Of a DNA stretch of 64,000 nt, positions 5,648 through 43,326 are shown in pieces (the stretch's first letter is position 1; every line of letters begins with the position of its first letter). The DNA is from an uncultured Cohaesibacter sp. (GTDB lineage Bacteria; Pseudomonadota; Alphaproteobacteria; Rhizobiales; Cohaesibacteraceae), in the NCBI RefSeq assembly GCF_963667045.1, contig NZ_OY762934.1:2806501-2870500 (forward strand), given 5' to 3'. The notes below the pieces were generated by a model. That model had not been told where the DNA came from, searched no databases, and was given only the letters and a program-made list of their open reading frames with translations. A program made the translations under genes and the position numbers.

Positions 5648-5895
5648 CAAATCCTGTCCATTATGTCACCAAGCATTTGCAGCAATGCAAAGAAAGTGAC
5701 CATTTCAGGGTAAAGAAGAACATGCCCAGGATCGGCGGGTTCCAATCATTCCATACAGCACGGCGAACCATCTCCGGTTTTGAGGCCATGCTGTGGCTCA
5801 AGAAGGGCTTTGACTTTGCGGGAGCATGGACCGTTCGTGAACAGAATGATCTTATTGCCCTCCTCTTCGGACTTCAAAAAGTTAACGAAGCATGA
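5648..5895 (+). pseudogene. IS6-family transposase, C-terminal remnant
   Basis: About 80 codons resembling the end of IS6-family DDE transposases. Seen: HYVTKHLQQ, DHFRVKKNMPRIGGF, TARRTISGFEAMLWL and the terminal FGLQKVNEA before the stop. The DDE catalytic domain is absent, and the 5' edge abuts the 821-bp repeat at 5647. IS6 elements move by replicative transposition and cause adjacent deletions and inversions, so this remnant is a plausible agent of the neighbouring rearrangement. Confidence 0.75.
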
Positions 5896-8372: not shown

Positions 8373-8396
8373 GTCTTGGTCTCTCTATTCCGTGGC

Positions 8397-10238: not shown

Positions 10239-10239
10239 G

Positions 10240-23042: not shown

Positions 23043-24635
23043 TCAAAGGGGCTGGCTCGCATCCAGCACGCTTTCCCTAAGGTGCCCATCTTGAATAGTC
23101 AGAATTGTATCTGACAGAGTCTGCGCGGCGTCATGATCGTGGGTAAAAAGCACGAGCGCCAAGTTTTGTTTATCCCGCAATTCAAACAGAAGGGACATGA
23201 TCTGCTCCCTCGCGCACATGTCGAGGGCGGAGGTGGGCTCGTCCAGAATAAGACATCTGGGGTTTGACACAAGAGCACGTGCGATAACAAGGCGCTGAGC
23301 TTCGCCGCCAGAAAGAGCAGCCGTTTTACGTTTCACGAAATCCTTCTCGCGCGGTAGGCCAACAAGGGCCAACAATCGGGAAATATGGCGCGACACTGCC
23401 TGCCTGTTATAGATGAAAGCCATCTCTTCATTCTTACACCCAAGTAAAATCGCCTCGCGCAGAACATCGCCAACCGAGAAATGGTGCGCCATTGCCCGGT
23501 GTGGATGCTGCGAGACAAGGGACAGCGATGTTTCTCCTGAGCGAGATGCCGTCTCGACGATGTGGCCGCGTGGCGATATCCAGTTGATTTGACCGCGCTG
23601 AAGCGGCTCAAGACCAGCAATGAGCCTTGCAAGGGTGGATTTACCGGAACCGCTCGGTCCGACAACGCCAAGGCTGCTTCCCGCCGGGACAAAGGCCGAA
23701 ATATCCTTGAGCACCGGAAAGGATCCATAGTCATGGGACAGGCGGGATATCTCCAGCCCCTCCTGAGAGGAGCCGTTTTCTTTTTTGCAATGCTCCATCG
23801 GCCCCAAATGACAGCAAGCCCTTCTGCGGCCCCTGTGCGTGCCAGAGCAAGTGCCATGGTGGCGTTGTTTCTTGTCCAGCAGCGCGCAACTATAGGGCTT
23901 CTTGGGGCATCTGAAAAAGTCATTTGTCTTTCCTTCTTCGATCACTTCTCCCCGATAGAGCACGGCAACCCGGTCTGTCATGCGCTCGGCCAATGCCAGA
24001 TCGTGGGTAATGAGGATTTGCCCGCGAGACTCGCTGTCGCTTGTAAAAGCCTTGATCGCAATTTCCTTATTGGCCGGATCGAGTGAGGCCGTGGGTTCAT
24101 CAAGAATGAGATAGTCAGGCTTTCTTGCTAGGGCCAGAGCCGACAGGACCCGCTGGATTTCCCCGCCGCTCAAGCGCGATGGATATTGGTGATAGAGTTG
24201 GGCGGGAATATTGTAGCGACGGCAGATTTCCTCTGCTGTCCGGTGCATAGTGGCACTGTTGCGCAGGCTCTCCTCAATATGCTGCTCGATTGTGAGATGG
24301 GGATTAAGAGCATCGGATAGCGCCTGTGCTATGAGGCCGATCTTTTGGCCCCGTGCTTTTTTTATCTCTTTCGGCTTTGCGTGCAGCATGTCGAGACCAT
24401 CAACGCAGGCCGTGCCTGACCAGTAGAACCCCTTTGGTTTTCTCAAAAGGCTCTTTACTGTCGTTTCAATCGGCTTGCCTGTGAGGAGACCAAGCAAGAG
24501 ACGGGCGAGCGATGTTTTACCGCCACCGGATTCTCCGATAATTGCCAGGGTTTCTCCCTTTTCAAGGGTGAAAGACACATTGTTCAGAATGAGCTGGTCG
24601 GAGAAATGAAGGGAAAGATTGCTGACCTCTATCAC
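23043..24635 (-). CDS. Fused double ABC ATPase, DppD-DppF / NikDE type
   Basis: 530 aa from a GTG start that overlaps the permease stop as GTGA. Two ATPase domains. Domain 1 (about 1-240) has GESGGGKTS, LSGGEIQRVLSA and YLILDEPTASLD; domain 2 (about 293-530) has GPSGSGKST, LSGGEAQRLVIA and CLILDEPTSALD. They are joined by a linker with six Cys and five His between residues 243 and 283. It ends the minus-strand operon TrmO-like, binding protein, permease, permease, ATPase. It is the only Opp/Nik-type ATPase in this window, although three permease pairs of that type are present, so it may serve more than one. Confidence 0.87.
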   Translation of the reverse strand: MIEVSNLSLHFSDQLILNNVSFTLEKGETLAIIGESGGGKTSLARLLLGLLTGKPIETTVKSLLRKPKGFYWSGTACVDGLDMLHAKPKEIKKARGQKIGLIAQALSDALNPHLTIEQHIEESLRNSATMHRTAEEICRRYNIPAQLYHQYPSRLSGGEIQRVLSALALARKPDYLILDEPTASLDPANKEIAIKAFTSDSESRGQILITHDLALAERMTDRVAVLYRGEVIEEGKTNDFFRCPKKPYSCALLDKKQRHHGTCSGTHRGRRRACCHLGPMEHCKKENGSSQEGLEISRLSHDYGSFPVLKDISAFVPAGSSLGVVGPSGSGKSTLARLIAGLEPLQRGQINWISPRGHIVETASRSGETSLSLVSQHPHRAMAHHFSVGDVLREAILLGCKNEEMAFIYNRQAVSRHISRLLALVGLPREKDFVKRKTAALSGGEAQRLVIARALVSNPRCLILDEPTSALDMCAREQIMSLLFELRDKQNLALVLFTHDHDAAQTLSDTILTIQDGHLRESVLDASQPL

Positions 24636-25486
24636 CAAAGTTCCTTTCCGTCTGCCATGGAATAGGCCTCCAGACTGCGTCCAATAAACAGCACAAAGAG
24701 CAGGAACAGCGACAGGCACAGGCCGGGCGGGATCAAAAGCCACGTCCATGCCGGGCTCTGCAGATAGTCTAACGCGTCCTGCATGAGACTGCCCCAAGTG
24801 ACCAGTTGCGGGTCGGTAAGACCCAGAAATCCAAGGCCGGCAACCTTCATGGTAGCCTGCCGGATCTGTTGCACGAAGAGTCCCAGAACTGACGGCAATA
24901 TCGCCGGCAAAATATGGCGCGTGGCGCAATAGAGCCACGATGCTCCCATGCGGCGGGCATAGAGCACATTTTCTCTTGTCAGCTCGCGCAGGAAAAGGGC
25001 CCGCAAAACACGCACCTCGTCATGCCAGGTGGTGAGCGCCAACAAGAGCACCGTGCCCCAAAAGCTGGGATGCACCATTGCCGCGAGCAACAGCAGAATG
25101 AGGATGGAGGGAATGACCTGAATGATATCAACCAGCCGCAAAATGACATTAGAGAGCATGCTCCCAGCAATCGCAGCAGTTGCTCCCAGAATGATTGAAA
25201 TCACGATGGCCAGAAAGGATGTGGCAAAGGCAATGAGGACAGTGTTGGGCGTCGCTTTCAATGTGCCGACGAGGACATCCTGCCCGATGTCATTCGTGCC
25301 GAGCCAATGCGCATAGCTTGGCGGCTGGAGGCTATCCAGCCCGGTGACATAGGGTGGCACGAGGATACTGATAAGCGAGACCAGTACAAGGAGCAGAAGG
25401 AACAGAAAACTCTGCTTTTGCCAACGGGCCATAGGCAGACTAGGCAGAAGCGAACGAGTTAGGGGCAAGAAGCGAAAATGGTTCAT
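24632..25486 (-). CDS. Nik/Dpp-type ABC permease C
   Basis: 284 aa from MNHFRFLPLTRS, a start lying just after the upstream permease stop. Typical DppC/NikC features: an N-terminal helix, the WLGTNDIGQDVLVG motif (about 78-91), and a membrane domain with EAA-type loop ARRMGASWLYCATRHILPAILPS. It pairs with the permease encoded immediately upstream. Confidence 0.87.
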   Translation of the reverse strand: MNHFRFLPLTRSLLPSLPMARWQKQSFLFLLLLVLVSLISILVPPYVTGLDSLQPPSYAHWLGTNDIGQDVLVGTLKATPNTVLIAFATSFLAIVISIILGATAAIAGSMLSNVILRLVDIIQVIPSILILLLLAAMVHPSFWGTVLLLALTTWHDEVRVLRALFLRELTRENVLYARRMGASWLYCATRHILPAILPSVLGLFVQQIRQATMKVAGLGFLGLTDPQLVTWGSLMQDALDYLQSPAWTWLLIPPGLCLSLFLLFVLFIGRSLEAYSMADGKELW

Positions 25487-25490
25487 AGCC

Positions 25491-26636
25491 TCATCCCCGT
25501 TTCGCAAGCATTGCAACGGCATCGTCCAGCAGCCAGTTGACCAACAGAACCACGGCGGCGAGACCGAGCACAGCTCCTTGAAGCAGCGCAAAATCCCGAT
25601 CAAGCACAGCATTGTAAATCAAATGGCCGATGCCGGGGTAGGAAAAGACAATTTCTACGAACAGGACCGATGTCACCATCGCCGAGACCGTGTCGCTCAG
25701 ACGCGCCAACAGGGTTGGCAAGAGATTACGACCGAAATAGTGAATTAACTCGCGCCTCTCTCCTACTCCTCGAGCACGGGCATTGGAAATGAAGGGGCGA
25801 ACAGAGAGTTTAATGGCCTCACCACGGCTCAGAAAATAGAAACGGACGACTTCATGCATTGCCAGTGCTGTAGCAGGCAAGATTGCATGATAGAGAATAT
25901 CGATCAGACGTTTGGTGCCATTGTCCGAGGGAAAGAGCGGTTCGGCACCCGAAACGGGGAACAAGGATAGACCAAAGCCGAATAGAACCAGCAACAGCAC
26001 CGCCGTAGCAAAGGGCGGCAGGCTGGCAATGATCGTAACAATGGCGGTCATTGCCCGATCAAGCAACTGGTGCGGTTGGCGACCCGCTTCAATGCCACAG
26101 CCTATACCCAAAATGAGGGAGATTGGTGTTGCCAGCAGCATAAGCAACCCTGTCCAAGGCAGGGAACCGGAGAGCAATTGGGTTACCGGAGCTGCGTGAA
26201 TATAGGAAAAGCCGAGATCTCCGTGAAGCAGTGCATTAGAATAGTCTGCAAATTGCGACAAAAGCGTGCCGTCTAATCCCATCTGTTTCCGCAGTGCTGC
26301 AATTTCCGTTGGGTTGAGGTCGCGCGCCAGATCTCCAGGGAACAGGATGTCCAAAGGATCACCAGGCATCAGGCGTGGCAGAAAGAAAGTGAGGGCGATG
26401 AGAAAGATAAACACGACAAGCCGATTGGCTAGCCCTGATAGCAGACCAACCACCCGCCTTTCAGGTTCGCCATTCTGAACCAGTATCGCTCTTCCGGCAG
26501 ATGCGCCCTCACTTGGGGGAACTGATCTGGATATGTCTCTGCTTGTCTCAACCGGGGTCACACCAACCATGACACTCGCCATATTTTTCAGAAAAAGAAG
26601 ACGAGGGCCGATCAAGGCCCCCGTTATGGTGCCCAT
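25491..26636 (-). CDS. Nik/Dpp-type ABC permease B
   Basis: About 381 aa from the first ATG. The true start may be nearer the first membrane helix (LANRLVVFIFLIALTFFLPRLMPGDP), because the first ~65 residues are polar and unusual for DppB. The membrane domain carries the EAA loop FISNARARGVGERRELIHYFGRNLLPT and the C-terminal SYPGIGHLIYNAVLDRDF signature. Second membrane partner of the fused ATPase system. Confidence 0.83.
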   Translation of the reverse strand: MGTITGALIGPRLLFLKNMASVMVGVTPVETSRDISRSVPPSEGASAGRAILVQNGEPERRVVGLLSGLANRLVVFIFLIALTFFLPRLMPGDPLDILFPGDLARDLNPTEIAALRKQMGLDGTLLSQFADYSNALLHGDLGFSYIHAAPVTQLLSGSLPWTGLLMLLATPISLILGIGCGIEAGRQPHQLLDRAMTAIVTIIASLPPFATAVLLLVLFGFGLSLFPVSGAEPLFPSDNGTKRLIDILYHAILPATALAMHEVVRFYFLSRGEAIKLSVRPFISNARARGVGERRELIHYFGRNLLPTLLARLSDTVSAMVTSVLFVEIVFSYPGIGHLIYNAVLDRDFALLQGAVLGLAAVVLLVNWLLDDAVAMLAKRG

Positions 26637-26675
26637 GATGTATCGGGACCAACATCATGGAGCACATCGCCTTTC

Positions 26676-28238
26676 TCAAGGCATCAGTATCTGCTTGGGA
26701 ATGACCATAGGAATACCAAAGGAAATGCCTGTTTTCAGATAAAGCGGCTCAACATTAGCGCTATGCACCACTGCCCAGAGCGGGTTCACCAGCATGTAGG
26801 CTGGTAGCTCTTTGGCATAGAGAGCCTGAAATTCATGCATCATTGCAGCCCGTTCCTCGACGCTATCGGAGGCGGCCTGATCAACCAGCAGCTGCTTCAT
26901 TTTGCCATCAACAAAATATTTGTCGCTTTTAGGGGATTTGGAGAAGATGCGATAAATGACACTATCCGGATCGCCCATGGTACTGGCAGTTTCCAGCGCG
27001 ATATCAAAAGTCCCGTCCCGGAAGGTTGCGTGCATGGCCGCATCTTCCATGATGCGGGTTTCCGTCGTGATGCCGAAAGCCGTTAGCTGTTCTGCAAGAA
27101 CGGTGGCCAGCTTCTTGAACGACTTGTTCGTGACCAGTTGCAGGACCACGGGTTTGCCATCTTGGCTCCAGACGCCGTTATCAAGGGCCCATCCCTGTTT
27201 TACAAAGAGCTGAGAAGCCCTTTCCTTGTCGTATTTGTAGTCAGGATCGTTCTGATCCTTGTGCCAAGGAGACTCTCTTTGGAAGAACCCGGTTTCAGCC
27301 ACCTCTCCTTTCCCCGAATAGGCAATGTCAACCAGTTTTTGGCGGTCAATCACATAGGCAAGCGCTTGACGCATGTCTGTTTGCTTGAATAAACCTTTAT
27401 GGTTGAACAGCAGTTTTACAGGATGATTGCTCAAATAGGTCATAACCGAAAGTCCTGCCTTCTTGGCAGCCCCCACTTGCTCCATGGGGAAGCTGTTGAA
27501 GAGATCAACGTCTCCTTTGGCAATGGCCTCAATGGCCGTGCTTGGCGTCATGCGAATGGCAGCAAGCTGCCCATATTTGGGCTGACCAAGATAATAGTTT
27601 TCATTCCGTTGATAGAGATAGCGCCCTTGTGCCTTGTCATAGCTGACGAGTTTGTACGGACCGCTGCCGATTGTGGCCTGTTTGCCGGTGAAGCGCTCCG
27701 GAATCGCGACCTTTTCATAAATATGCTTTGGAAGGATAGGAAGGGAGATCAGCTTGCTGGTGATCATCCCTGCATCTTTTTCTTGTATTGTAAGCCGCAC
27801 ATGATCCGCCGCCAGAACTTCCGCCTTGGCCACATTGGCAACCGAGACAAAATTATAAGGATGTTCCTTCATGTATGAGAAGGTAAAGGCAACATCGTCG
27901 GCCGTGAGCGGTTTACCGTCGTGCCATTGGGCCTTGGGGTTAAGCATGAGATCGTAGATTAGGCCATCGTCAGACACCGTCCATGACGACGCCAGTGCCG
28001 GAGCGGGAGCGCCTGTCTTATCCTGCCCCAACAGCGTATCAAAAATGTAACTCGTATAGATGTAGGCCGGACCGGCTTTCTGGTGCGCATAAGGAGACGG
28101 CAATCCCCTGTCGCCCTTGGCTTCGGCAATAACCAGCCGATCTGCCGCAAGAACCGGGCCTGCCGCTATAGAAGGCAGCAGGCTGAGGCCTGCAATCAAG
28201 ACAGCATGTTTTAAAAGTCGGGATGAATGGACCATCAT
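26676..28238 (-). CDS. Nik/Dpp-type ABC substrate-binding protein
   Basis: 520 aa from MMVHSSRLLK, with an AGGA site; an alternative in-frame ATG lies 7 codons upstream. Signal peptide to about ...VLAADR, then a family 5 extracellular solute-binding domain. Typical motifs are YDLMLNPKAQWHDGKPLTADDVAFTF, IGSGPYKL and MRQALAYVIDR. Encoded between the TrmO-like gene and the two permeases. The ligand could be a peptide, nickel or a metal-chelate; the sequence does not decide this. Confidence 0.87.
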   Translation of the reverse strand: MMVHSSRLLKHAVLIAGLSLLPSIAAGPVLAADRLVIAEAKGDRGLPSPYAHQKAGPAYIYTSYIFDTLLGQDKTGAPAPALASSWTVSDDGLIYDLMLNPKAQWHDGKPLTADDVAFTFSYMKEHPYNFVSVANVAKAEVLAADHVRLTIQEKDAGMITSKLISLPILPKHIYEKVAIPERFTGKQATIGSGPYKLVSYDKAQGRYLYQRNENYYLGQPKYGQLAAIRMTPSTAIEAIAKGDVDLFNSFPMEQVGAAKKAGLSVMTYLSNHPVKLLFNHKGLFKQTDMRQALAYVIDRQKLVDIAYSGKGEVAETGFFQRESPWHKDQNDPDYKYDKERASQLFVKQGWALDNGVWSQDGKPVVLQLVTNKSFKKLATVLAEQLTAFGITTETRIMEDAAMHATFRDGTFDIALETASTMGDPDSVIYRIFSKSPKSDKYFVDGKMKQLLVDQAASDSVEERAAMMHEFQALYAKELPAYMLVNPLWAVVHSANVEPLYLKTGISFGIPMVIPKQILMP

Positions 28239-28287
28239 TGTTCCTTTTTCTGGCATCATGAGAATGCCTTCAGGTCCCCGTCATGCG

Positions 28288-28740
28288 CTATTCAGACCAA
28301 TCAAGATCGAGTTTTGCTTCCTCAATGCTGTCAATCCTCGGCACATAGGGTTTGAGATCAAGAAGCGGTGTACCATCAATGCAATCAAGACCACTGACCC
28401 TGATCCGATTTCCTTCGATCCCAAGAATTTTCACCGTGCTTATGGCAATTGGGTTGGGGCGATGGGGAGAGCGAATTGCAAATACACCGTAGGATTTGTC
28501 TGCATGAGGTGGTCTACTCTGCAAGACGGATCTATTGGCCTGGTCCAACCAATAAAGAACGACCAAATGGCTGGCAGCGGAAAGCCCCACCAGCGCCTCA
28601 TCATAGGCTGCATCAAGCTCAATCAAACTTTCCTTTTCATTGAATCGGCTGTTGCGCGGACAATCTTCTGGCGTTTCAAAGCCTGTCCAGATTTTGCCGA
28701 TTGTGTAGAGAGAAAAGGAAGAAGAGGATGGGAAATTCAT
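28288..28740 (-). CDS. TrmO/TsaA-family (UPF0066) protein
   Basis: 150 aa, matching only the core domain of TrmO (E. coli TrmO is about 235 aa and methylates N6 of threonylcarbamoyl-A37 in tRNA using SAM). Seen: FAIRSPHRPNPIAISTV and LDCIDGTPLLDLKPYVPR, which form the SAM-site region of the family. It is the first gene after the operator at 28831-28852 and is followed 50 bp later by the ABC binding-protein gene. Its place in a transporter operon suggests a small-molecule or transporter-linked role rather than housekeeping tRNA modification; this is inference. Confidence 0.8.
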   Translation of the reverse strand: MNFPSSSSFSLYTIGKIWTGFETPEDCPRNSRFNEKESLIELDAAYDEALVGLSAASHLVVLYWLDQANRSVLQSRPPHADKSYGVFAIRSPHRPNPIAISTVKILGIEGNRIRVSGLDCIDGTPLLDLKPYVPRIDSIEEAKLDLDWSE

Positions 28741-28830
28741 GGTGGTTTACTCGTGAGCTAGTCTAGCAATCAGCTTTCCGGCCGCAAAAAAGGAGTATAA
28801 TTTACCACTTTTAGAAAATGCAATAAAAAC

Positions 28831-28852
28831 TTGAGATTTTTATTCAAGAAAA
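28831..28852 (-). promoter_or_regulatory. AT-rich 22-bp operator, site a
   Basis: One of four ungapped copies of an AT-rich 22-bp motif (this window: 28831, 29982, 30016, 31421). Shared pattern: (T/A)TGA(G/A), seven mostly A/T bases, then a (C/T/A)-rich step and CAAGAA(A/T)A. In this copy TTGAG and TTCAAG form a dyad. It lies about 90 bp upstream of the TrmO-like gene on the minus strand. No known family operator comes to mind, so the regulator is unknown. Confidence 0.55.
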
Positions 28853-29384
28853 GTTACAAAGCCCTTGTTGCGCTGAGGTGGAAAGCGGCATATTGGTCAT
28901 GTTTTAACGTGGCGTTTTGTGTTGTGACTGGACAATGACGACGCAGGGAAATCACCAATCGCGACCCTAACCCGGCATTTGCTAGCCATCATGAACCTCG
29001 AAGTGTCCTCCCCATTCCTGCCATTCGTGCGAATTGCAGCATTTTCATGGAACAGGTGTCTGAAGAGTGAAGCATCGAGACATTGACGTAGTTGGATGTT
29101 TCATCCTCATGGGAAGCTCCTACTGGTAAACCAGACGGGAAGCAGTCTTTGGTCTCAGTTGAGCAATATCAGACGGCGCCGTTCCGTGCGAGCATGCAAG
29201 GACCTTTCAAGCGCATTCCGGTTGTAGCGTCATGCTTGGCGGACCAGATGCTCGAATACACAAAATGTAACGCAAGAAAGGTTAGACCAACGGTTACATA
29301 TTGAATGCTACTCGTTAAAACGCCACCAGAATTCAATGGGCGGACATCCCATTGATCCAGGCGGCGTCATCACATCATGCAGGT
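28853..29384. other. Intergenic region without a gene
   Basis: About 530 bp between site a and the end of the 187-aa gene. A short frame at 29092-29304 has no good ribosome site or motif and I do not call it. A 12-bp match (28957-28968) to the edge of the IS5-family remnant at 21943-21954, in inverted sense, may be an old insertion-sequence terminus. Confidence 0.4.
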
Positions 29385-29948
29385 TTATTGGCTCAGGATT
29401 CTGAGATTGAACAGATCATCCGGTGTCGTTGCCATCAGCCTTGAAATCAGGTCCTGTTTGAAAGATTGATAGGCGCTCTGTTCAAAGGCATCGCCTTTTC
29501 GTGGCTGGAACCCTCGCACCATATTGCGAAATTCGTCAGTGAAATAGCCATCCACCGGCCATAGGGCAATCCGTTTTCCTTCATATTCAAACTCGTAATA
29601 GAAGCGCCCGATCAGCGCTTCTGGCGCCTGTTCGGGAAGCCCTTCCGTTTTGATCGTTATATTGTGGGCGTTGCGCGTGCTGCCGCGAAGAACAAGCTCG
29701 ATGATATCCGTGACTCCGGGGCCAGGGAAACCCACTTGCACTTTAAGTGCGCTTCTTTCGACCAGACCGTCACTGGCCAATTCTGCAAAAGCCTTTTTGA
29801 GCATCTGAAACATGAGAGCCGTGGCGATGATCTGATCCGGTCCGGCATAGCGGATGAAATCCTCCCGAGTAAAAGAAAGAGGGCAATCTCCTTCTCTTAG
29901 ATCCACTGTCGGTGCGTGACGCTCTGCAATGCCGTACGGATTTTCCAT
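29385..29948 (-). CDS. Uncharacterised 187-aa protein of the uptake locus
   Basis: The start MENPYGIAERH is chosen over an upstream ATG, whose extension (FFLSFFLIFFMRI) is translated from the AT-rich operator region. Soluble, with no signal peptide. Visible features: an acidic N-terminal REGDCPLSFTREDFIRYAGPDQIIATALMFQMLKKAF, and an aromatic mid region GRFYYEFEYEGKRIALWPVDGYF. I do not recognise the family. It is divergent from the amidotransferase-like pair, with two copies of the 22-bp operator between them, so it probably belongs to the same regulon as the transporters. Confidence 0.65.
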   Translation of the reverse strand: MENPYGIAERHAPTVDLREGDCPLSFTREDFIRYAGPDQIIATALMFQMLKKAFAELASDGLVERSALKVQVGFPGPGVTDIIELVLRGSTRNAHNITIKTEGLPEQAPEALIGRFYYEFEYEGKRIALWPVDGYFTDEFRNMVRGFQPRKGDAFEQSAYQSFKQDLISRLMATTPDDLFNLRILSQ

Positions 29949-29981
29949 TCGAGTGATTTCCCATATCGTGGTTGACAAAAT

Positions 29982-30003
29982 TTGAATTTTTAATACAAGA
30001 ATA
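29982..30003. promoter_or_regulatory. AT-rich 22-bp operator, site b
   Basis: Second copy of the 22-bp motif, reading TTGAA, T5AA, then ACAAGAATA. It lies 34 bp upstream of the 187-aa gene (minus strand) in the divergent promoter region. A TTGACA hexamer overlaps its left edge at 29972-29977. Confidence 0.55.
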
Positions 30004-30015
30004 CGCATAAAAAAT

Positions 30016-30037
30016 ATGAGAAAAAAACTCAAGAAAA
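30016..30037. promoter_or_regulatory. AT-rich 22-bp operator, site c
   Basis: Third copy, with the most regular dyad: TGAG, seven A, then CTCA, followed by AGAAAA. Located about 38 bp upstream of the first amidotransferase-like gene (plus strand). Sites b and c are centred about 34 bp apart, near three helical turns, which would allow co-operative binding on one DNA face. Confidence 0.58.
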
Positions 30038-30074
30038 ATTTCCCTTCTTTCAACGCACTTGCGAAAGACAGCCA

Positions 30075-30716
30075 ATGGCAAAATTACAAGGACGCTTTCT
30101 GTTCGTCGACAACACCGCAGTGGGATTGGCTGCCCTTCCGCCTCGCTTGGCACGTCATCGGGTTGACGTTGTGCAGCAATATGAGATTGATCGTCTGGAC
30201 TGGGCTGTCTATGACGCGGTCATTCTGACCATCCATGCAGATCAGATCCATCTGATGGACTTGAGGGATAAGTTTGAAAGCTATCTGGCGTGCGGTGGGA
30301 CGGTTTTGTTCAACGGCCATGTAGTGCATAGGTTCCTGCCGGAACTCAGCCCCTTTCAACCTCTACCAAAACGCGGAAGAAACGATCTTATCGTTCATCG
30401 TGAAGCGGAGCATCCGGCCTTTTATGGCATCACAGGTGAGCTGTTATCATTCCGAAAAGGCGTGTCTGGCTTTTATGGCCGTGGGATGAATCCGCCTCCT
30501 GACGGGGCCTTTGTCATCAACAGCATCGGTGCGGACCATTGGCCGCTTGACTGGATTGTCGAGCGCGAGAGTGGTGGTCGAATCTTCGTCCATGCCGGCA
30601 ATGATATCTGGGGGTTTCTGATGATCGGATCTCCGGAAAATCTTACTCACGTTCAACGCTTCTTCGACTGGCTGAGCGAAAGCTCAAACCTCAAAGATGC
30701 GATCGTAGCCGCGTGA
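30075..30716 (+). CDS. Glutamine-amidotransferase-like (ThuA-like) protein 1
   Basis: 213 aa. An N-terminal flavodoxin-like alpha/beta fold is suggested by GRFLFVDNTAVGL and YDAVILTIHADQIHL, with a glycine-rich CGGTVLFNGHVV turn like those of class I amidotransferase-like (ThuA/DUF4159-type) domains. No catalytic Cys at the usual nucleophile elbow is evident, so amidotransferase chemistry is doubtful. No signal peptide. It is a distant paralogue of the next gene (same size and turn order). It is probably co-transcribed with it and with the second transporter. Confidence 0.55.
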   Translation: MAKLQGRFLFVDNTAVGLAALPPRLARHRVDVVQQYEIDRLDWAVYDAVILTIHADQIHLMDLRDKFESYLACGGTVLFNGHVVHRFLPELSPFQPLPKRGRNDLIVHREAEHPAFYGITGELLSFRKGVSGFYGRGMNPPPDGAFVINSIGADHWPLDWIVERESGGRIFVHAGNDIWGFLMIGSPENLTHVQRFFDWLSESSNLKDAIVAA

Positions 30717-30756
30717 GTCGTAGCCGCCTGTTAGGCCCTTTGAGAAGGATTTTTCG

Positions 30757-31392
30757 ATGATGACTATCGATCAAGACCCCCAGAAGAAATCCATAGCTGC
30801 GATTGATGGTGGATTCTCTTATCACCATCAATCCCTGAGGTGCGAGCCGTTCGCACACTTCTTCGATGAGGTCATCTACATCAGGGATGTTCCTCTCACT
30901 GATCTGACGCAGTTCGAAACGCTCATCATTCCGTGCAGAATGAACGCCTTTCATCTCGCTCCGCTATCGGAGCAGTTTCAAAGCTACATGAAAGCCGGTG
31001 GCAGGCTGGTGGTAATGGGGGAAACTTTCCCGGATCGGTGGTTGCCGGATGTTAACTTCACAGCGATGGACACCAATTTTTGGTGGTGGCTTGAGAAAGG
31101 GGCTGACCTTGGTGTGCGGATCGTGGATACCGATCATCCCATGTCGGCCCACGTCACCAAGGAGGCTGCCACTTGGCACCTGCACGGAACGCTGGATCCT
31201 CTGACCAAGAACCAGGCATGTCTGATCGCCACACAAGATGGTGAATGTCTGATGTTTGAAGATGTATCAAGTTATGCGCCGGGTACCCTGATCGTGACGA
31301 CACTTGATCCATTTTATCATCACGGCAGTCATTTCATGCCTATGACGACGGTTTTTCTGGACAGGTTTCTCAACTGGCTTTCGGAAGGTTAG
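30757..31392 (+). CDS. Glutamine-amidotransferase-like (ThuA-like) protein 2
   Basis: 211 aa. Parallels the preceding protein: an alpha/beta start (KKSIAAIDGGFSYHHQSLRCEPF), TLIIPCRMNAFHLAPL, the turn AGGRLVVMGETF, and a C-terminal VTTLDPFYHHGSHFMPMTTVFLDRFLNWL. Several His and Trp residues are clustered (FWWWLEKG, HHGSHFMP). The gene lies 40 bp after protein 1 and is followed by an operator copy and the permease genes. No function can be assigned; a sugar- or metal-chelate-linked role is speculative. Confidence 0.55.
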   Translation: MMTIDQDPQKKSIAAIDGGFSYHHQSLRCEPFAHFFDEVIYIRDVPLTDLTQFETLIIPCRMNAFHLAPLSEQFQSYMKAGGRLVVMGETFPDRWLPDVNFTAMDTNFWWWLEKGADLGVRIVDTDHPMSAHVTKEAATWHLHGTLDPLTKNQACLIATQDGECLMFEDVSSYAPGTLIVTTLDPFYHHGSHFMPMTTVFLDRFLNWLSEG

Positions 31393-31420
31393 AAGCGGAT
31401 CTGGACAAAACGAATTAAAT

Positions 31421-31442
31421 ATGAATATAAAACTCAAGAATA
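31421..31442 (+). promoter_or_regulatory. AT-rich 22-bp operator, site d
   Basis: Fourth copy of the 22-bp motif, reading ATGAATAT, four A, then CTCAAGAATA. It lies 35 bp upstream of the second Nik/Dpp-type permease operon. Its presence inside what could have been one long operon suggests a separate promoter for the transporter genes. Confidence 0.57.
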
Positions 31443-31476
31443 ATTCAATCGTTTGTCTCCAGAACCGATATTTCTT

Positions 31477-32415
31477 ATGGCGATCCAACTTTTCCAGCGC
31501 CTCGTCCAGGCTGCGATCCTACTGTTTGTAATCTCAATCGTCGGGTTTGCCTTGCTGCGGCTGCTTCCGGGAGATTTCGCAGAGGTGCTGCTCCTTGCCC
31601 AGATGGATGGAACCCTGCCGGACCCGGCCACTGTCGCTCAATTTGCGCAAGACAATGGTTTCAATGATCCTATGCCGCTGCAATATTGGCACTGGCTGAC
31701 AGATGCGCTGGGTGGTGACCTTGGGCAATCGTTCATTACAGGCGAGGCTGTTTCAAGCGACATGGCCCTTCGTATTAGCCGCTCGTTATTTCTTGGCGTC
31801 ACGTCACTGGCAACGGCATTGATGCTGGCCGTTCCAATCGGCTTTTTCTGCGCCACACATACGGGCGGGTTGATCGACAGAGCCTTGACCGCTTTGAGTG
31901 TGGTGGGCATGTCCATTCCCAATTTTTGGCTGGCGCTTTTGATGGCGTTGTTCTTCTCGCTTTTTCTCGATCTTTTGCCAAGTTCCGGCCATGGCACACT
32001 GGCACACGTGGTTCTTCCTGCGTTGGTTATTGCAACGTCGGTTACCGGTGTCATTGCGCGCTTTGTTCGCGCGCGCCTGCTCGACGAGCTGTCGCAGGAC
32101 TATGTCCGCACTGCTAATGCCAAAGGAATGGGGCGGCTTCGCGTTCTCTTGAGCCACGTGGTGCCGAACATCTTACCGTCAACGCTGACGCTGGCCGGCT
32201 TGCAATTCGCCCGGATTTTCGATGGCATGATTGTGGTCGAGACCATCTTTGCCTGGCCCGGGATCGGCAGTCTGCTGGTTGAATCCCTGTTCAACAGAGA
32301 CTATCCGCTCATCCAGATGTGCTTTCTTGTGATCGCATCCGGATATGTGGTGATCAATCTGGTGGTCGATTATCTGATCACGCTGATTGATCCCAGAGTG
32401 CGAGGAGCCATATAG
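31477..32415 (+). CDS. Nik/Dpp-type ABC permease B (second system)
   Basis: 312 aa from ATG at 31477; a TTG at 31453 is the alternative and neither has a strong ribosome site. Typical DppB protein: first helix AILLFVISIVGFALLRLLPGDF, EAA loop ANAKGMGRLRVLLSHVVPNILPS, and C-terminal FAWPGIGSLLVESLFNRDYPL. Stop and next start are directly adjacent. With the following permease and binding protein it forms an importer that lacks its own ATPase gene. Confidence 0.87.
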   Translation: MAIQLFQRLVQAAILLFVISIVGFALLRLLPGDFAEVLLLAQMDGTLPDPATVAQFAQDNGFNDPMPLQYWHWLTDALGGDLGQSFITGEAVSSDMALRISRSLFLGVTSLATALMLAVPIGFFCATHTGGLIDRALTALSVVGMSIPNFWLALLMALFFSLFLDLLPSSGHGTLAHVVLPALVIATSVTGVIARFVRARLLDELSQDYVRTANAKGMGRLRVLLSHVVPNILPSTLTLAGLQFARIFDGMIVVETIFAWPGIGSLLVESLFNRDYPLIQMCFLVIASGYVVINLVVDYLITLIDPRVRGAI

Positions 32416-33282
32416 ATGCTCCGAAGACCTTCGCACAATCAATTGCGAACCCGCTCTCGTTGGAGACGATTGCCGCTAAAGGAGCCGGTGTTTCTTCTTG
32501 TGGTTCTCCTGTGTATCGGGATTCCATTGTTTGCTCCTTATGATCCCCAAGCGATTGATATTCTGAACAGACTTGCAAGCCCATCACCCAGCCATTGGCT
32601 CGGGACTGATCAGATGGGAAGAGACGTCTTTTCGCGCCTTCTGTATGGGGCTCGCATTACTGTTGGCAGCGCCTTGCTTGTCGTCCTGTTTGCTGGCGGC
32701 ATCGGAACGCTCATCGGAGCTCTTTCCGGCTATCTGGGAGGCTTGCTTGACAAGTTCGTCATGCGCCTGTGCGAAGGCATGTCGGTGCTTCCGGCGCTCG
32801 CAATTACCATGGTCATTGCCGGCGTTCTAGGGCTTGGTCTGTGGGCGGTGATTGTCGCGCTTATCTCGGTGCATTGGACCGAATATGCCCGACTGGTACG
32901 CAACATGGTGATGGTGGAAAAGGCCAAGACTTATATTCAGGCTGCCGAAAGTCTGGGGGCCGGGCGCTTTCGGATCATCAGGCACCATCTATTGCCCAAT
33001 ATCGCCGGGCCACTTCTTACCATCACGGCCTTTTCCATGTCATGGGCCATTCTCTCTTTCGCAGGCCTCAGCTTTCTTGGACTTGGCGTAGAGCCCGGCA
33101 CGGCTGAATGGGGCCGTATGATTGCTGAATCCCGATCTCATCTGAGATCCCATCCTCACCTCGTTCTTGCCCCCGGACTGGCCATCATGGCTCTCGTCAT
33201 GGCGATCAATCTGTTCGGAGACGCCTATGGCGATCGTCTCCGGGGGACACACACCAATCCACTCAAATCACGGAGATCTTGA
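32416..33282 (+). CDS. Nik/Dpp-type ABC permease C (second system)
   Basis: 288 aa starting directly after the previous stop. Contains the DppC motif WLGTDQMGRDVFSRLLYGAR (about 58-77), a membrane domain and the EAA loop AAESLGAGRFRIIRHHLLPNIAGP. The binding-protein gene starts 1 bp after its stop region. Membrane partner of the permease above. Confidence 0.88.
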   Translation: MLRRPSHNQLRTRSRWRRLPLKEPVFLLVVLLCIGIPLFAPYDPQAIDILNRLASPSPSHWLGTDQMGRDVFSRLLYGARITVGSALLVVLFAGGIGTLIGALSGYLGGLLDKFVMRLCEGMSVLPALAITMVIAGVLGLGLWAVIVALISVHWTEYARLVRNMVMVEKAKTYIQAAESLGAGRFRIIRHHLLPNIAGPLLTITAFSMSWAILSFAGLSFLGLGVEPGTAEWGRMIAESRSHLRSHPHLVLAPGLAIMALVMAINLFGDAYGDRLRGTHTNPLKSRRS

Positions 33283-34827
33283 ATGAAAATCAGGTCATTG
33301 TTTAAAGGCGTGGCGACAGCTTTGCTTGCCGTTGCAGCATTGGCGACGCCGCTGTCGGCCAGTCACGCTGACGAGGGTGATAACACCCTCACTGTCGCGA
33401 CCATGTGGGAAGCCTTGCCGCTTTCCATGAAGCCACGCAGAAGCCGCTTCTTTAATGAGAGCGAGATCCTTGACACCCTGGTCAAACTCGACTTTGACAT
33501 GAAGCTCATTCCCGGTCTCGCCACTTCCTGGAAAAGAGAGACGCCAACGAGCTGGCATTTCACGCTTCGTGAAGGCGTCAAATTCCATGATGGCACTGAC
33601 TTCAACGCAGCCGCTGCAAGATACTCGCTGGAACGCGTGATTGCTCTTCTGCCTTACGCTTCGGACCTCCTGAATATCAAGGAAATCGAGGCCGTCTCGG
33701 ATACAGAACTTGCAATCGAAACCAACGCTCCCTTCGCAGCTTTGCCTAACCAATTGACCGACGCAATCACGGTTATCTATGCCCGTGCATCCTTCGATGA
33801 AAAGGGCGAGTTTGTCAAACCGGTCGGTACTGGTCCGTGGAAGTTTGTCGACTATAAGAAGCAGGACCGGACCGTGGTTGAACGGTTCGATGGCTATTGG
33901 GGTGATGCCCCGGCTCTGGACAAAATCATCTATCGCTACATTCCGGATCACAATGCGCGTGCCCTTGCGTTGGAGACGGGCGAAGTGGATTTTGTCGTGC
34001 ATCTGTTGCCAGCCGATGTTCGGAGAATGGAAGCCGATGAAGAGTTCAAGGTCTACAAGGCGCCAAGTGCCGGCCTTTACTACGGTGCCTTCAATGCAGG
34101 TGAGATGAGCCCGTTGCATGACAGTAAGGTCCGTCAGGCGGTGAACCTGCTTGTTGATCGTGATCTGTTGGTCAAGGGTGCTCTCGACAATATGGGCAAG
34201 CCGGCCTGGAAATTCTTTCCGGACGCATTCCCTTGGTCCTCGGACAAGGTTTCCAGCTACAGATTTGCCCCCGAGGCAGCAGCCTCTTTGCTGGCTGACG
34301 CTGGCTATGAAAAGGTCGATGGCGTTTGGTCCAAGAACGGAACGCCGCTTGAGTTGCGCGTTGTCAGCTACACCAGCCGAGCCGAAATGTCGGCAATAAC
34401 CGAGACAATGGCCGCGCTTCTGGCGCAAAATGGCATCAAGTCAAAGATCGAAATGTTTACCTGGGCAGGCATGCTCGATAAGGTCAAACAGGGAGAGTAT
34501 GACGTCTCGGTTGTCTTCTGGACGCCTGAAATGACTGGCCATCCGGATTTGCATCTGAAATCCCAATTCCACTCCAAAGCTGGCCTCAACTATCAAAACT
34601 GGGCCAGTCCGGAGTTTGACGCACTGGTAGACAAGGGACGCGGTCTGGATGAGGGTGCTGAAGCTATGGAAGTCTACACCAAGGCGCAGCAAATCCTGCA
34701 GGACGATGCACCGATCATCCCTCTGGTGCATAAGGTCTATGTGGCGGCATCAACCAGCGGGGTTGAAGGCTACAAGATTCACCCTTCGGGCTTCTTCTAC
34801 AATTTCAAAGCCGTTAGCAAGAAATAG
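33283..34827 (+). CDS. Nik/Dpp-type ABC substrate-binding protein (second system)
   Basis: 514-aa family 5 solute-binding protein with signal peptide to about SASHADEG. The N-terminal lobe VATMWEALPLSMKPRRSRFFNESEILDTLV and TSWHFTLREGVKFHDGT resemble NikA/DppA. Last gene of the plus-strand operon, followed by a terminator. Its last third and downstream DNA are duplicated in inverted orientation at 4827-5647. The ligand is not predictable; context with TrmO-like and metal genes makes a metal chelate possible. Confidence 0.88.
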   Translation: MKIRSLFKGVATALLAVAALATPLSASHADEGDNTLTVATMWEALPLSMKPRRSRFFNESEILDTLVKLDFDMKLIPGLATSWKRETPTSWHFTLREGVKFHDGTDFNAAAARYSLERVIALLPYASDLLNIKEIEAVSDTELAIETNAPFAALPNQLTDAITVIYARASFDEKGEFVKPVGTGPWKFVDYKKQDRTVVERFDGYWGDAPALDKIIYRYIPDHNARALALETGEVDFVVHLLPADVRRMEADEEFKVYKAPSAGLYYGAFNAGEMSPLHDSKVRQAVNLLVDRDLLVKGALDNMGKPAWKFFPDAFPWSSDKVSSYRFAPEAAASLLADAGYEKVDGVWSKNGTPLELRVVSYTSRAEMSAITETMAALLAQNGIKSKIEMFTWAGMLDKVKQGEYDVSVVFWTPEMTGHPDLHLKSQFHSKAGLNYQNWASPEFDALVDKGRGLDEGAEAMEVYTKAQQILQDDAPIIPLVHKVYVAASTSGVEGYKIHPSGFFYNFKAVSKK

Positions 34828-40912: not shown

Positions 40913-42397
40913 ATGTCATTCAAACTGAAAGTGATTTCCCGGATAGCCATGACGGCTATCGGTGTTGTTGTGGCGGCGACAGCTTGGGCTGCTGAACCGA
41001 TCGAAGTGGGCGCGACCTTTATCACACGCGGTGTCGAACCAACAAAGGGGTCCAACGGCTGGGCGCTGGTCAGCCACGGCATTGGTGAAAACCTGTTCAC
41101 CGTTGATGAAGCCGGTGCACTGGTGCCTCAGCTTGCGAGCAAAGCCGAGCGTGTTGATGATCTGACCTGGATGGTCACCCTGGCCAAAGACAGGTTTTTC
41201 TCCGATGGCTCGCCTGTGACGGCCGAGGCATTGGCCGCTGGTTTTACGAAAGTCTTCGCCGACAACAAGGGCGCTCTGGCAACCGGTGGCAAACTGTCTT
41301 TCGAGGCAACATCCGATCTGGAAATGAAGGTCATCACGGAAAAACCGGTTCCCCGCATTCAGGCCCTGTTCGCCGAATGGCCGCTGATTGCATTCAAGCC
41401 TACTGCGGATGGCGCCGTTTTCTCCGGCCCCTATGCGGTGAAAGGCTTCAAGGCCGACACTGTGGTCGAGCTGGTGCCAAATGCCTATTATGCCGGTGCA
41501 GAGAAGCGCGCCCCTGTCAATATCCGCAAGTTCGGAGATGCACAGGCAATGACGTTGGCGCTTGAATCCGGGGATCTTGACCTTGCCTTCGGTCTGCCTT
41601 CAGAGGCCGTTGCTCGTCTGAAAGCCAATCCGGATGTGACCGTCAAATCTTTCCCCGTTGGGTATCAATATTTCGCGTGGCTCAACACAGGCCGCCCAGC
41701 ACTTGCTGACAAGAAAGTGCGTCAGGCTCTTGATCTGGCCTTTGACCGCAAGGAACTCGTTGCCGCGATCAATGGTGGCTTGCCGGCTACCGGTGCCTAC
41801 GCACCTTACTTCCCATTCGCTGGCAAAGACGCCCGTCCAACCGATGTGGAAAAGGCGGCCGCTTTGCTGGATGAAGCCGGTTGGGTCAAAGGCGACGATG
41901 GTATGCGCACCAAAGACGGCAAACCGCTCAGCCTGTTGGCCCTGACCTACCCACAGCGCCCGGACCTTGTCACCATGCTGCCCGTGATCAAGGCGGAGCT
42001 GGCGCGGGTTGGCGTTGCTGTTGAGACCAAAATCGTCGACAACATCACGCAGGCTCTGGCCGGTGGGGACTATGACATCGCGCTTTGGGCACAGCATACC
42101 GCTCCAAGTGGCGACCCAGCCTTCTTTCTCAATTCGATGCTCACAACCGGCGCATCCATGAATCAGGCCGATTATGCGTCTCAGGATTTCGACGCAATCG
42201 TTGCCAAGTTCGCGAGTGTGAGCGACGCCGAAAAGCGCAATGCATTGGCGCTTAAGGCACAGGCAAAGCTCTTTGACGATGTGCCAATCAGCTTCCTGGT
42301 CTCCCCTGTCTGGTATGTTGGCATGTCCAAACGCCTAGAAAACTACCAGCCTTGGGGCTCCGACTATCACGTGCTGCGTGCCAATATCGGAGAATAG
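40913..42397 (+). CDS. Nik/Dpp-type substrate-binding protein under B12 riboswitch
   Basis: 494-aa family 5 solute-binding protein with a signal peptide to about TAWAAEP. Sequence resembles NikA-like proteins: ENLFTVDEAGALVPQLASKAERV, FSGPYAVKGF, DKKVRQALDLAFDRKEL. The cobalamin riboswitch upstream makes a cobalt-related ligand (free Co2+, cobalt chelate or corrinoid precursor) the most likely. It is the first gene of binding protein-permease-permease. No ATPase gene follows. Confidence 0.85.
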   Translation: MSFKLKVISRIAMTAIGVVVAATAWAAEPIEVGATFITRGVEPTKGSNGWALVSHGIGENLFTVDEAGALVPQLASKAERVDDLTWMVTLAKDRFFSDGSPVTAEALAAGFTKVFADNKGALATGGKLSFEATSDLEMKVITEKPVPRIQALFAEWPLIAFKPTADGAVFSGPYAVKGFKADTVVELVPNAYYAGAEKRAPVNIRKFGDAQAMTLALESGDLDLAFGLPSEAVARLKANPDVTVKSFPVGYQYFAWLNTGRPALADKKVRQALDLAFDRKELVAAINGGLPATGAYAPYFPFAGKDARPTDVEKAAALLDEAGWVKGDDGMRTKDGKPLSLLALTYPQRPDLVTMLPVIKAELARVGVAVETKIVDNITQALAGGDYDIALWAQHTAPSGDPAFFLNSMLTTGASMNQADYASQDFDAIVAKFASVSDAEKRNALALKAQAKLFDDVPISFLVSPVWYVGMSKRLENYQPWGSDYHVLRANIGE

Positions 42398-42405
42398 GTG
42401 CGCCG

Positions 42406-43326
42406 ATGAAAGCTCTGTTGCGGCAATCGGTCGGGATCGTATCAAGCTTGCTTGTGATTTCCTTCATTACCTTTGCGGTGATCACCAACATGCCATCGGA
42501 TCCGGTCGAAATTGCCGTCAGAGCCTGGAATCTTGCTGCGACGGATGAAACCGTCGCAGCTCTTCGACAAGAATGGGGGTTGGATCAGCCCTTTTTTCAA
42601 CGCTACGGCAATTGGCTCCTGGGGTTTGTTGAGGGCGACTGGGGCAACTCCTTTCGATCCGGCCTTCCCGTATTCAATGAGTTTTTTGAACGGTTTCCCG
42701 TATCATTTGCACTTGGCTTTGGGGGACTTGGGTCTGCGGTTCTCGTTGCCATTCCGCTGGGCTTTTTTGCGGCATTGACGCCCGGTGGCGCCATTGATCG
42801 CTTGAGCCGATCCCTTTCCGTTTTCGTTCAAACGGTGCCTGCTTTTTGGAGCGGCTTGCTCCTGCTCTGGATCCTTGGTGCCAAACTGCACTGGATCCGT
42901 CCCTTCGCGCAGGACATCAATGCCTATGCGCTCGCGATCTTTTTGATCGCACTTCATTCCACGGCGGTCTTTGCCAGGGTTTATCGCAAAGCACTGCGTG
43001 ACTTTTCAACCGAGCCATACTTTGCAACGGCTCTGTCGAAGGGACTGTCTCGCAGGCAGGCTTTTTGGCGACATGGAAACAAAGCTGCGCTCTTCTCTCT
43101 GCTCGCCGCAGTGCATTCAGAAGCTGGATGGGTGATTGGCGGTACCGCTACCATGGAAATCCTCTTCAACTTCCCCGGCATCAGTCAGTTTCTGGTTCAG
43201 AGCATCGAGGCGCGTGACCAGATGATCCTGCAAGCCTATGTGATGGTTGTCTCTCTCTGGATGGTGGCGATCTCTATCCTCGTCAAGATCATCCAACAGG
43301 TGCTCGATCCGAGGATCTCATCATGA
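42406..43326 (+). CDS. Nik/Dpp-type permease B (B12-riboswitch operon)
   Basis: 306 aa from MKALLRQSVG, 8 bp after the binding-protein stop. Membrane protein with EAA loop ATALSKGLSRRQAFWRHGNKAAL and the C-terminal FNFPGISQFLVQSIEARDQM signature of DppB/NikB. Overlaps the next gene by ATGA. Part of the putative cobalt importer. Confidence 0.87.
   Translation: MKALLRQSVGIVSSLLVISFITFAVITNMPSDPVEIAVRAWNLAATDETVAALRQEWGLDQPFFQRYGNWLLGFVEGDWGNSFRSGLPVFNEFFERFPVSFALGFGGLGSAVLVAIPLGFFAALTPGGAIDRLSRSLSVFVQTVPAFWSGLLLLWILGAKLHWIRPFAQDINAYALAIFLIALHSTAVFARVYRKALRDFSTEPYFATALSKGLSRRQAFWRHGNKAALFSLLAAVHSEAGWVIGGTATMEILFNFPGISQFLVQSIEARDQMILQAYVMVVSLWMVAISILVKIIQQVLDPRISS

Follow-up and report, generated by a model that had tools for sequence, protein, structure and literature searches.

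Two Opp/Nik-type ABC importers and an FmdE-like/GAT gene trio with iron-type operator-like boxes in an uncultured Cohaesibacter sp.

The cluster described here occupies positions 23043..34827 of a 64,000-nt window, the whole stretch of DNA that was analysed, on contig NZ_OY762934.1 of an uncultured Cohaesibacter sp. (an alphaproteobacterium). The list of open reading frames and profile searches of the window showed that all named genes were open reading frames and in place, which confirmed the gene set proposed in an earlier sequence-only reading: two Nik/Opp importers, a fused ATPase, a TrmO-like protein, an unknown protein and two paired proteins. The fused ATPase, permeases, an SBP_bac_5 binding protein, the TrmO-family protein and the 187-aa protein U187 are encoded on the minus strand, and a pair of ∼212-aa proteins (GAT1 and GAT2), two permeases and a binding protein on the plus strand. 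The two importer sets had been described as facing each other; they were instead found to be divergent, back to back. The claim of a single (fused) ATPase gene was borne out, as no second ABC ATPase gene was seen at 22.9–35 kb on reading the list of open reading frames. Transposase-like remnants and a second, partial copy of SBP2 were also noticed in the region by reading; the names FeoB, TetR and transposase were likewise given by reading. The GTG start of the fused ATPase was set by comparison with the orthologue in genome G011. The features are as follows.

23043..24635, minus strand: fused ABC ATPase of Opp/Nik type, set 1 (PF00005 in two stretches, 1.2e-53)
24632..25486, minus strand: permease C, set 1, start inferred (PF00528, 1.1e-16)
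25491..26636, minus strand: permease B, set 1, given at its open reading frame limits, true start probably further in (PF00528, 2e-23)
26676..28259, minus strand: SBP1, SBP_bac_5 binding protein, set 1 (PF00496, 3.2e-65)
28288..28740, minus strand: TrmO-family (PF01980) protein at the head of set 1 (5.5e-35; TIGR00104, 132 bits)
28831..28847, no strand: box like an iron-responsive operator, upstream of the TrmO-like gene (motif match; box also before the G011 orthologue)
29385..29948, minus strand: U187, 187 aa, predicted FmdE-fold protein (model pLDDT 75 and Foldseek match to 2glz)
29982..29998, no strand: operator-like box with one core change, the one nearer U187 of two boxes spaced 34 bp apart (motif match)
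30016..30032, no strand: operator-like box between U187 and GAT1 (motif match)
30075..30716, plus strand: GAT1, paralogue of GAT2 (ThuA/DUF4159 affinity, via fused homologues only)
30757..31392, plus strand: GAT2, partner of GAT1 (superfamily basis as for GAT1)
31421..31437, no strand: operator-like box upstream of permease B, set 2 (motif match)
31477..32415, plus strand: permease B, set 2 (PF00528, 2.4e-43; Opp2B 295.3 bits, cut-off 350)
32416..33282, plus strand: permease C, set 2 (PF00528, 1.4e-32; NikC 292.6 bits, cut-off 358.45)
33283..34827, plus strand: SBP2, binding protein, set 2 (Opp5A_nikA 256.5 bits, cut-off 600)

The four dyads of the cluster were recognized as TGA-N9-TCA boxes, three exact and one with a single core change, and in sequence they are like the RirA/IRO iron operator. 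TGA-N9-TCA is given as the IRO motif in one report (PMC8822346), and the boxes look similar to the IRO box of R. leguminosarum fhuA, TGACTAAAATAATCAT, shown in another (PMC10510648). A NikR or Fur reading was dropped, because the spacing and half-sites of the dyads fit TGA-N9-TCA. The motif search used an AT-core pattern, which replaced two earlier patterns that were too loose. A 17-mer scan of the whole window gave five sites, four of which were the cluster boxes, all intergenic; this count was within chance (first-order Markov control, mean 1.92 and maximum 5 in 100 runs). Unlike the bare count, the clustering of the four boxes is notable. The sequence TGA-N9-TCAAGAA occurred without mismatch three times in the window, always in the cluster. 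Four congeners carry three of the boxes (the U187/GAT1 pair and that before set 2) at matching positions, and in G011 a box precedes the orthologue of the TrmO-like gene (L060, 8637). It is mainly because of these conserved positions that the boxes are not attributed to chance. The proposal that the dyads link all units under common regulation was supported by the boxes upstream of TrmO-like/set 1, U187, GAT1-GAT2 and set 2 and by their conservation in congeners.

Boxes at iron genes were surveyed in this genome and three congeners. With 0–1 mismatch, 15 distinct places were found in the four genomes, five of them at the module or its orthologues; among the remaining 10, seven were beside FTR1, Peripla_BP_2 (two), ExbB operons (two), SIP and FumC, and three were not at iron genes. 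Places with two mismatches added one more Peripla_BP_2 gene and SufB, the box of the latter lying ∼290 bp before the gene, within the last part of the open reading frame that precedes it; at this level 103 strand hits were obtained versus 61 for the reversed control, a modest enrichment. The best RirA-like protein of the genome scored 178.7 bits with NF008886 (family cut-off 193) versus 102.4 bits with NsrR, the former being the clear best equivalog. A TonB route was considered and set aside: the only plug-domain match of the genome is probably a B12 receptor, because its gene follows a cobalamin riboswitch.

The predicted model of U187, built from four sequences, reached a pLDDT of 75, and Foldseek matched it to 2glz (E 2.5e-4, probability 1.00, TM 0.51–0.62) and 2gvi (E 3.4e-4). 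As judged from this model, U187 has the FmdE fold. U187 gave no match to PF02663 (gathering score 22.9), and four homologues scored below that threshold (11.8–18.7 bits). The FmdE metal motif FHGHxC, mapped by eye against the residues given in PMC2954224, was not kept, with the second His and the Cys in 0/11 and the first His in 6/11. That 2010 structure paper states that most PF02663 genes adjoin metal-ion transporter genes, that the FmdE structures bound Zn/Ni and that an FmdE-UPF0066 fusion exists, UPF0066 being PF01980, the TrmO-like family; the function of FmdE was left open there (PMC2954224). PDB sequence searches with U187, GAT2 and GAT1 profiles returned nothing meaningful. The name FmdE is also used in two Pseudomonas papers, and the literature search found no paper joining FmdE, siderophore and ABC transporter.

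In a class-wide sample of 385 genomes, U187 was found in seven, GAT2 in seven and both in five (hypergeometric P 6e-9 with the own genome and 2.5e-7 when it is left out, in both cases ignoring relatedness). At the foreign GAT2 loci, GAT1 was adjacent or fused in 6/6 and an importer lay alongside in 6/6, four of Fec type and two of NMT1 type (the binding protein of one of these two was checked with Pfam). An importer also adjoined all 17 plasmid GAT loci, which were opened from 30 records and chosen for variety, not at random: 13 Fec, two Opp, one NMT1 and one haloarchaeal iron-ABC. The Fec, NMT1 and Opp labels came from BLAST against reference proteins, partly confirmed with Pfam, and those of L187 and L188 from record annotation. 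An FmdE-like gene accompanied the GAT pair in seven of the 13 Fec loci, and eight of the 17 plasmid loci had none in the stretch read. Genes for an FmdE-like protein, GAT1, GAT2, an Opp-type importer and an ATPase were found together on Paenibacillus and Paracoccaceae plasmids, so that the proposed search for co-occurrence showed the core to be conserved elsewhere. In Methylosinus and Methylocystis, TonB siderophore receptors border Fec-GAT1-GAT2-FmdE, and the Methylosinus locus also has FecR and a sigma factor.

The earlier suggestion of a metal chelate as substrate gained support from the iron-type boxes at the cluster and at the iron genes of congeners and from the Fec partners, iron being the likely metal. 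It might instead be supposed that the substrate is a non-iron small molecule (such as a chelate of Ni, Co or Zn, or a nutrient containing P or S) that is merely under iron control. The Zn/Ni in FmdE structures would agree with this, as would the gene neighbourhoods: FmdE-like genes stand directly before phnG on plasmids of Agrobacterium vitis, Labrenzia, Martelella and Proteus (phnH in 4/4, phnI and phnJ in three; plasmid phn names from record annotation), and a U187 homologue lies ∼6 kb from PhnI (identified by Pfam) in G242. The Opp/Nik and NMT1 families also handle many substrates, and NMT1 importers can carry non-metal ones. Nevertheless, the iron-type operators in the genus, the Fec-type partners in 13 of the 17 plasmid loci and the TonB siderophore receptors that border two of these loci make a non-iron substrate unlikely. 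In Labrenzia and Martelella, GAT was also in one gene run with the phn (C-P lyase) genes; this neighbourhood of FmdE-like and partly of GAT genes is not explained by a role in iron release.

GAT1 and GAT2 are paralogues, and they are probably a heterodimer because they also occur fused. Profile matches of the fused homologues were weak and below cut-offs (best ThuA 3.5e-6 and DUF4159 1.5e-5); ThuA and DUF4159 belong to the GATase-like superfamily. At the position aligned with the nucleophile (elbow placed by eye), Cys was present in 1/17 GAT sequences; the elbow residue was Glu in 8/9 GAT2, with Cys in that of G400, and His in 7/8 GAT1. The description of the pair as amidotransferase-like could therefore be retained at most for the fold, on the weak ThuA/DUF4159 matches of homologues, and not for the enzyme, as no nucleophile Cys is conserved. 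Because of the Cys in G400, enzyme types may differ within the GAT family. In GAT2, H127, H141 and H188 were invariant in 9/9 sequences, and four Trp were also invariant. The AF2 model of GAT had a pLDDT of 46 and was unusable, so the GAT2 Foldseek list was disregarded.

The literature search found no biochemistry for cytoplasmic proteins of the U187/GAT type. One could imagine that U187 and GAT1/GAT2 leave the substrate untouched and instead carry out gating or assembly of the ABC importer, or serve as sensors of the complex brought in, and both the four classes of importer that they accompany and the nucleophile position without a conserved Cys would suit such a role. However, unrelated importer folds would offer little common surface for one partner, and the invariant residues of GAT2 (three His, four Trp) are as expected of a ligand or metal site. 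Gating or sensing is thus considered quite improbable, and action of these proteins on the imported complex is preferred.

Set 1 was rare: an SBP1 orthologue (E <= 1e-80) was found in 1/60 other genomes, namely G011 (88%), where set 1 has its own ATPase and lies beside siderophore-type genes. The fused ATPase contains two ABC_tran domains. The TrmO-like protein scored 132 bits with TIGR00104, above the cut-off of 93.25, but tRNA as its target is questioned because 6/7 of the high-scoring TrmO copies in 13 genomes of the genus were located with importer genes. A close paralogue follows Fec-type genes in four congeners. Set 2 occurred with U187/GAT1/GAT2 in five congeners, all without set 1, and the two sets co-occur only in the present locus.

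It had been proposed that both importers use the single fused ATPase as one system. This would fit the one ATPase gene of the region, the common operators and the finding that no recognised ATPase gene lies beside set 2 in seven loci (the window, five congeners and G387); weak ATPase-domain matches (29–32%) were seen in L016–L018, with sugar-type identity established for L016 only. In contrast, the relatives of the fused ATPase in the five congeners with set 2 were only 31–35% identical, versus 60% in G011, set 1 has its own ATPase in G011, and the genome itself holds five matches at E <= 1e-40, the query gene included. The two sets form separate units, each with its own distribution, and a single common ATPase is not supported; we regard it as very unlikely. 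The equivalog cut-offs of the NikABCDE nickel importer were not reached for NikA (130.5 and 193.2 bits versus 393), NikB (255.9 for set 2 versus 447), NikC (121.9 and 292.6 versus 358.45) or NikE (TIGR02769, the best NCBIfam model for the fused ATPase, 256.6 versus 332.55), and a reading of the window's open reading frames turned up no genes for opine metallophore synthesis. A chance juxtaposition of two ordinary importers for peptides or nickel is hardly credible, since the transposase-like remnants and partial SBP2 copy do mark a rearranged region but common operators are conserved, gene associations recur across phyla and the NikA, NikB, NikC and NikE scores all fall below cut-off.

Taken together, the locus probably encodes two ABC importers for small iron complexes, each independent of the other and repressed by iron, together with cytoplasmic proteins that make use of the complex once imported. 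Under iron shortage, a RirA-type repressor would leave the boxes at TrmO-like/set 1, U187, GAT1-GAT2 and set 2; here the boxes, their conservation, the boxes at iron genes and the RirA-like gene are observed, and binding and derepression are what we infer. In the periplasm, the iron complex would be caught by SBP1 or SBP2, and the paired permeases would bring it inside, set 1 being driven by its own fused ATPase and set 2 presumably by one encoded elsewhere. The least certain steps are in the cytoplasm, where U187 and GAT1/GAT2 may bind the complex and, by changing or cleaving its ligand, set the iron free, and where the TrmO-like protein may modify the ligand with SAM. The importer would be exchangeable, as these cytoplasmic proteins are encoded beside Fec, NMT1, Opp and haloarchaeal iron-ABC systems alike. 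More tentatively, GAT1-GAT2 and the FmdE-like protein could form a general, importer-independent step in iron-complex use, a new ligand-processing mode of iron removal that serves no fewer than four mutually unrelated classes of ABC importer, is used by proteobacteria, Firmicutes and haloarchaea alike, and is tied to C-P lyase chemistry via the FmdE-like protein; we see this as a fair possibility that falls short of probable.

A few reductases and esterases are known to release iron from imported complexes in bacteria. The occurrence of the trio, sparse, widely scattered and labelled 'hypothetical protein', beside several unrelated iron-type importers in bacteria and archaea suggests an undescribed step in the use of imported iron complexes. 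It would offer a direct genetic handle on the release or processing chemistry and give FmdE-family proteins a concrete function to test. The view of the locus as an uptake system of undescribed gene content was supported, and a literature search, mostly without full texts, found no description of the U187/GAT genes.

Compared with known systems, FecBCDE-type ferric siderophore importers share the adjoining GAT pair in 13/17 plasmid loci, whereas the window importers are of Opp/Nik type. Opp/Nik importers, including CntABCDF and NikABCDE, share SBP_bac_5 proteins, paired permeases and best NCBIfam matches to nik/opp models, but their equivalog cut-offs are missed here. As in the RirA/IRO regulon of Rhizobiales, AT-rich TGA-N9-TCA boxes precede iron uptake, exbB and suf genes and a RirA-like gene is present, although its product scores below the family cut-off. 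The ThuA and DUF4159 families are approached by the weak profile matches of fused GAT homologues; unlike them, the GAT proteins come in pairs or fused, do not conserve a nucleophile Cys and, in GAT2, carry an invariant His triad. Finally, although U187 differs from the FmdE family (PF02663; 2glz, 2gvi) in the FHGHxC metal site and in a sequence score below threshold, it resembles that family in its predicted fold, in part of the dimer motif (D-x2-[Q/E]) and in its metal-transporter neighbourhood.

The window comes from a 5.24-Mb single-contig genome. All genes named in the sequence-only reading were present in it, and the cluster described there was real and unusual. It was arranged as follows:

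Set 1 (Opp/Nik-type importer), leftward: TrmO-like gene, binding protein SBP1, permease B, permease C, fused ATPase.
U187 (187-aa FmdE-fold protein), leftward: between the set 1 and set 2 units.
Set 2 unit (second importer), rightward: amidotransferase-like GAT1 and GAT2, permease B, permease C, binding protein SBP2.

It was found that U187 had no match in Pfam or NCBIfam. Its AlphaFold model (four sequences, pLDDT 75) matched FmdE structures alone at E < 0.001 (2glz chains A and B, and 2gvi), and distant homologues gave sub-threshold matches to PF02663 (E of 0.0019, 0.006, 0.25 and 0.0061). The FHGHxC metal ligands of FmdE were not conserved in the U187 family alignment. GAT1 and GAT2 were paralogues (hhalign 97.8%), adjacent in 6/6 GAT2 loci that the class search found in other genomes and forming a single open frame in G100 and G400. 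Fused plasmid GAT homologues matched ThuA and DUF4159 weakly. At the aligned nucleophile position, 8/9 GAT2 had Glu, the exception being G400 with Cys, and 7/8 GAT1 had His; H127, H141 and H188 were kept in 9/9 GAT2. The chemistry of the GAT1-GAT2 and FmdE-like proteins is one that we infer.

The proposal that two importers and one ATPase form a unit was not supported. In eight genomes searched, a 60% relative of the fused ATPase occurred only in the congener G011, where the aligned range contains stops; the six besides G011 and the source genome gave relatives of 31–35% at best. An SBP1 orthologue (E ≤ 1e-80) was found in 1 of 60 other genomes. Sets 1 and 2 are therefore separate cassettes. 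Set 1 of G011 follows a heterodimeric ABC_membrane/ABC_tran pair and a TetR-like gene (L060 3994-8417), whose window counterparts lie, by reading, at 7704-12126; the window has therefore been rearranged. In some bacteria, such pairs transport siderophores. A second partial copy, of the SBP2 3′ part, beside a transposase-like ORF (5164-5745, by reading), was a further sign of rearrangement. A third SBP_bac_5/permease/permease set (40913-44078), with no ATPase gene noticed adjoining, lay in a zinc-type neighbourhood of CobW-like and ZnuABC-like genes, by reading.

U187 was detected in 11 of 61 genomes (18 from the genus), own included, all inside the genus. U187-GAT1-GAT2-set 2 was present in six of these, own included, and an NMT1-type arrangement in four, for which full gene order was read, and NMT1 confirmed, in G014 only, G013, G016 and G006 being classed from the ATPase match position; the eleventh, G017, was counted for U187 presence alone. 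A second locus in G015 carried FeoB (by reading) and DUF4198 together with GAT2-GAT1, a distant SBP and a relative of U187. It also encoded a permease and, as one 875-aa polypeptide (L026 11285-13912), a permease-ATPase-ATPase fusion of an Opp-type importer. An 818-aa counterpart of this fusion (L171 4125-6578) is annotated merely as ATP-binding protein. In a sample of 385 genomes across the class, U187 occurred in 7, GAT2 in 7 and both in 5, in these contexts:

Fec: G075, G100, G307, G400.
NMT1-type: G147 (whose U187 contig shows an ABC ATPase alone near U187) and G291 (whose short U187 contig was read for U187 itself).
Opp-type, without recognised ATPase: G387.

Among 72,556 plasmid records, matches numbered 30 for the window GAT2, 32 for G075 GAT2 and 36 for G075 U187. 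In 17 of the 30 GAT2 records, opened for variety, an importer lay beside GAT in every case (Fec 13, Opp 2, NMT1 1, haloarchaeal iron-ABC 1), and an FmdE-like gene lay within the stretch in nine. Three extra records with an FmdE-like gene and no GAT in the stretch likewise adjoined importers. In Methylosinus and Methylocystis, TonB-dependent receptors flanked Fec-GAT1-GAT2-FmdE on both sides; a Paenibacillus plasmid, unannotated there, carried FmdE-GAT1-GAT2-SBP-permease-permease-ATPase consecutively. Labrenzia and Martelella showed a single run, GAT12-FecB-FecC-FecE-FmdE-phnG-phnH, and Agrobacterium vitis Fec-GAT12-FmdE, then a second Fec-FmdE, phnGHIJ and two more ATP-binding cassette genes. 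We take the unit of interest to be the cytoplasmic GAT1-GAT2 and FmdE-like proteins, recurring with iron-type importers of varied origin, rather than two importers with one ATPase.

On the A. vitis, Labrenzia, Martelella and Proteus plasmids, phnG immediately followed an FmdE-like gene that itself followed Fec-type genes. The FmdE-like/phn association was seen at L170 8968-16835 (A. vitis), L169, L187 and L173, and at L131, where PhnI is followed, ∼6 kb further downstream, by the U187 homologue of G242. An E. coli plasmid (L174 7956-11433) had an FmdE-like gene on each side of an NMT1-type importer, and five further E. coli plasmids had similar matches.

Seven TrmO-like copies of at least 118 bits were found in 13 genus genomes. 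Two head set 1 (G000, the source genome, and G011), one (G011:3699029) had no adjacent importer, and four come after Fec-type genes (G002, G003, G009, G012), the complete FecB-FecC-FecE-TrmO order being read in G012 only and the G003 FecE masked by an overlapping ORF. The protein passes the TrmO model; nevertheless, these contexts, and an FmdE-PF01980 fusion reported in PMC2954224, suggest an importer-linked role.

By plug-domain search, no siderophore-type TonB receptor was found in the genome. The one plug-domain match (L061) lay downstream of a cobalamin riboswitch (RF00174, 117.9 bits). The guessed substrate class, a metallophore or metal chelate, was judged good.

Four operator-like boxes, TTGAGATTTTTATTCAA, TTGAATTTTTAATACAA, ATGAGAAAAAAACTCAA and ATGAATATAAAACTCAA, occur in the cluster (28831-28847, 29982-29998, 30016-30032, 31421-31437). 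Three box positions were kept in G002, G003, G007 and G009; G015 had boxes upstream of GAT1 and of set 2, and G011 upstream of the TrmO-like gene. No clear box was seen in G017. Box pairs 35 bp apart were present in G013, G014, G016 and G006 (L020-L023), where U187 is in the NMT1-type arrangement. The frequent pairing of boxes at 34–35 bp (L020-L023; window 29982-30032) suggests cooperative binding. An operator pattern search of four genomes gave 15 distinct places with ≤1 mismatch, five at the U187/GAT/set 2 module or the G011 TrmO-like gene. Seven of the remaining ten adjoin the following genes:

exbB operons: G003 and G011.
Peripla_BP_2 gene and FTR1: G000.
Peripla_BP_2/ABM and fumC: G014.
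SIP: G003.

The other three lay away from such genes (G014:2927295, G003:2505743, G003:4800048). A two-mismatch place lay ∼290 bp upstream of sufB in G000, within the end of the preceding ORF. At ≤2 mismatches there were 103 strand hits versus 61 for the reversed-pattern control, so the loose pattern alone is noisy. The source genome has a gene for a RirA-like protein (G000:C1:3590298). The cluster boxes fit TGA-N9-TCA, three exactly and one with a single core change; this is a predicted RirA motif present in 5/10 RirA ChIP peaks according to PMC8822346, and by sequence the dyads look like iron-responsive operators.
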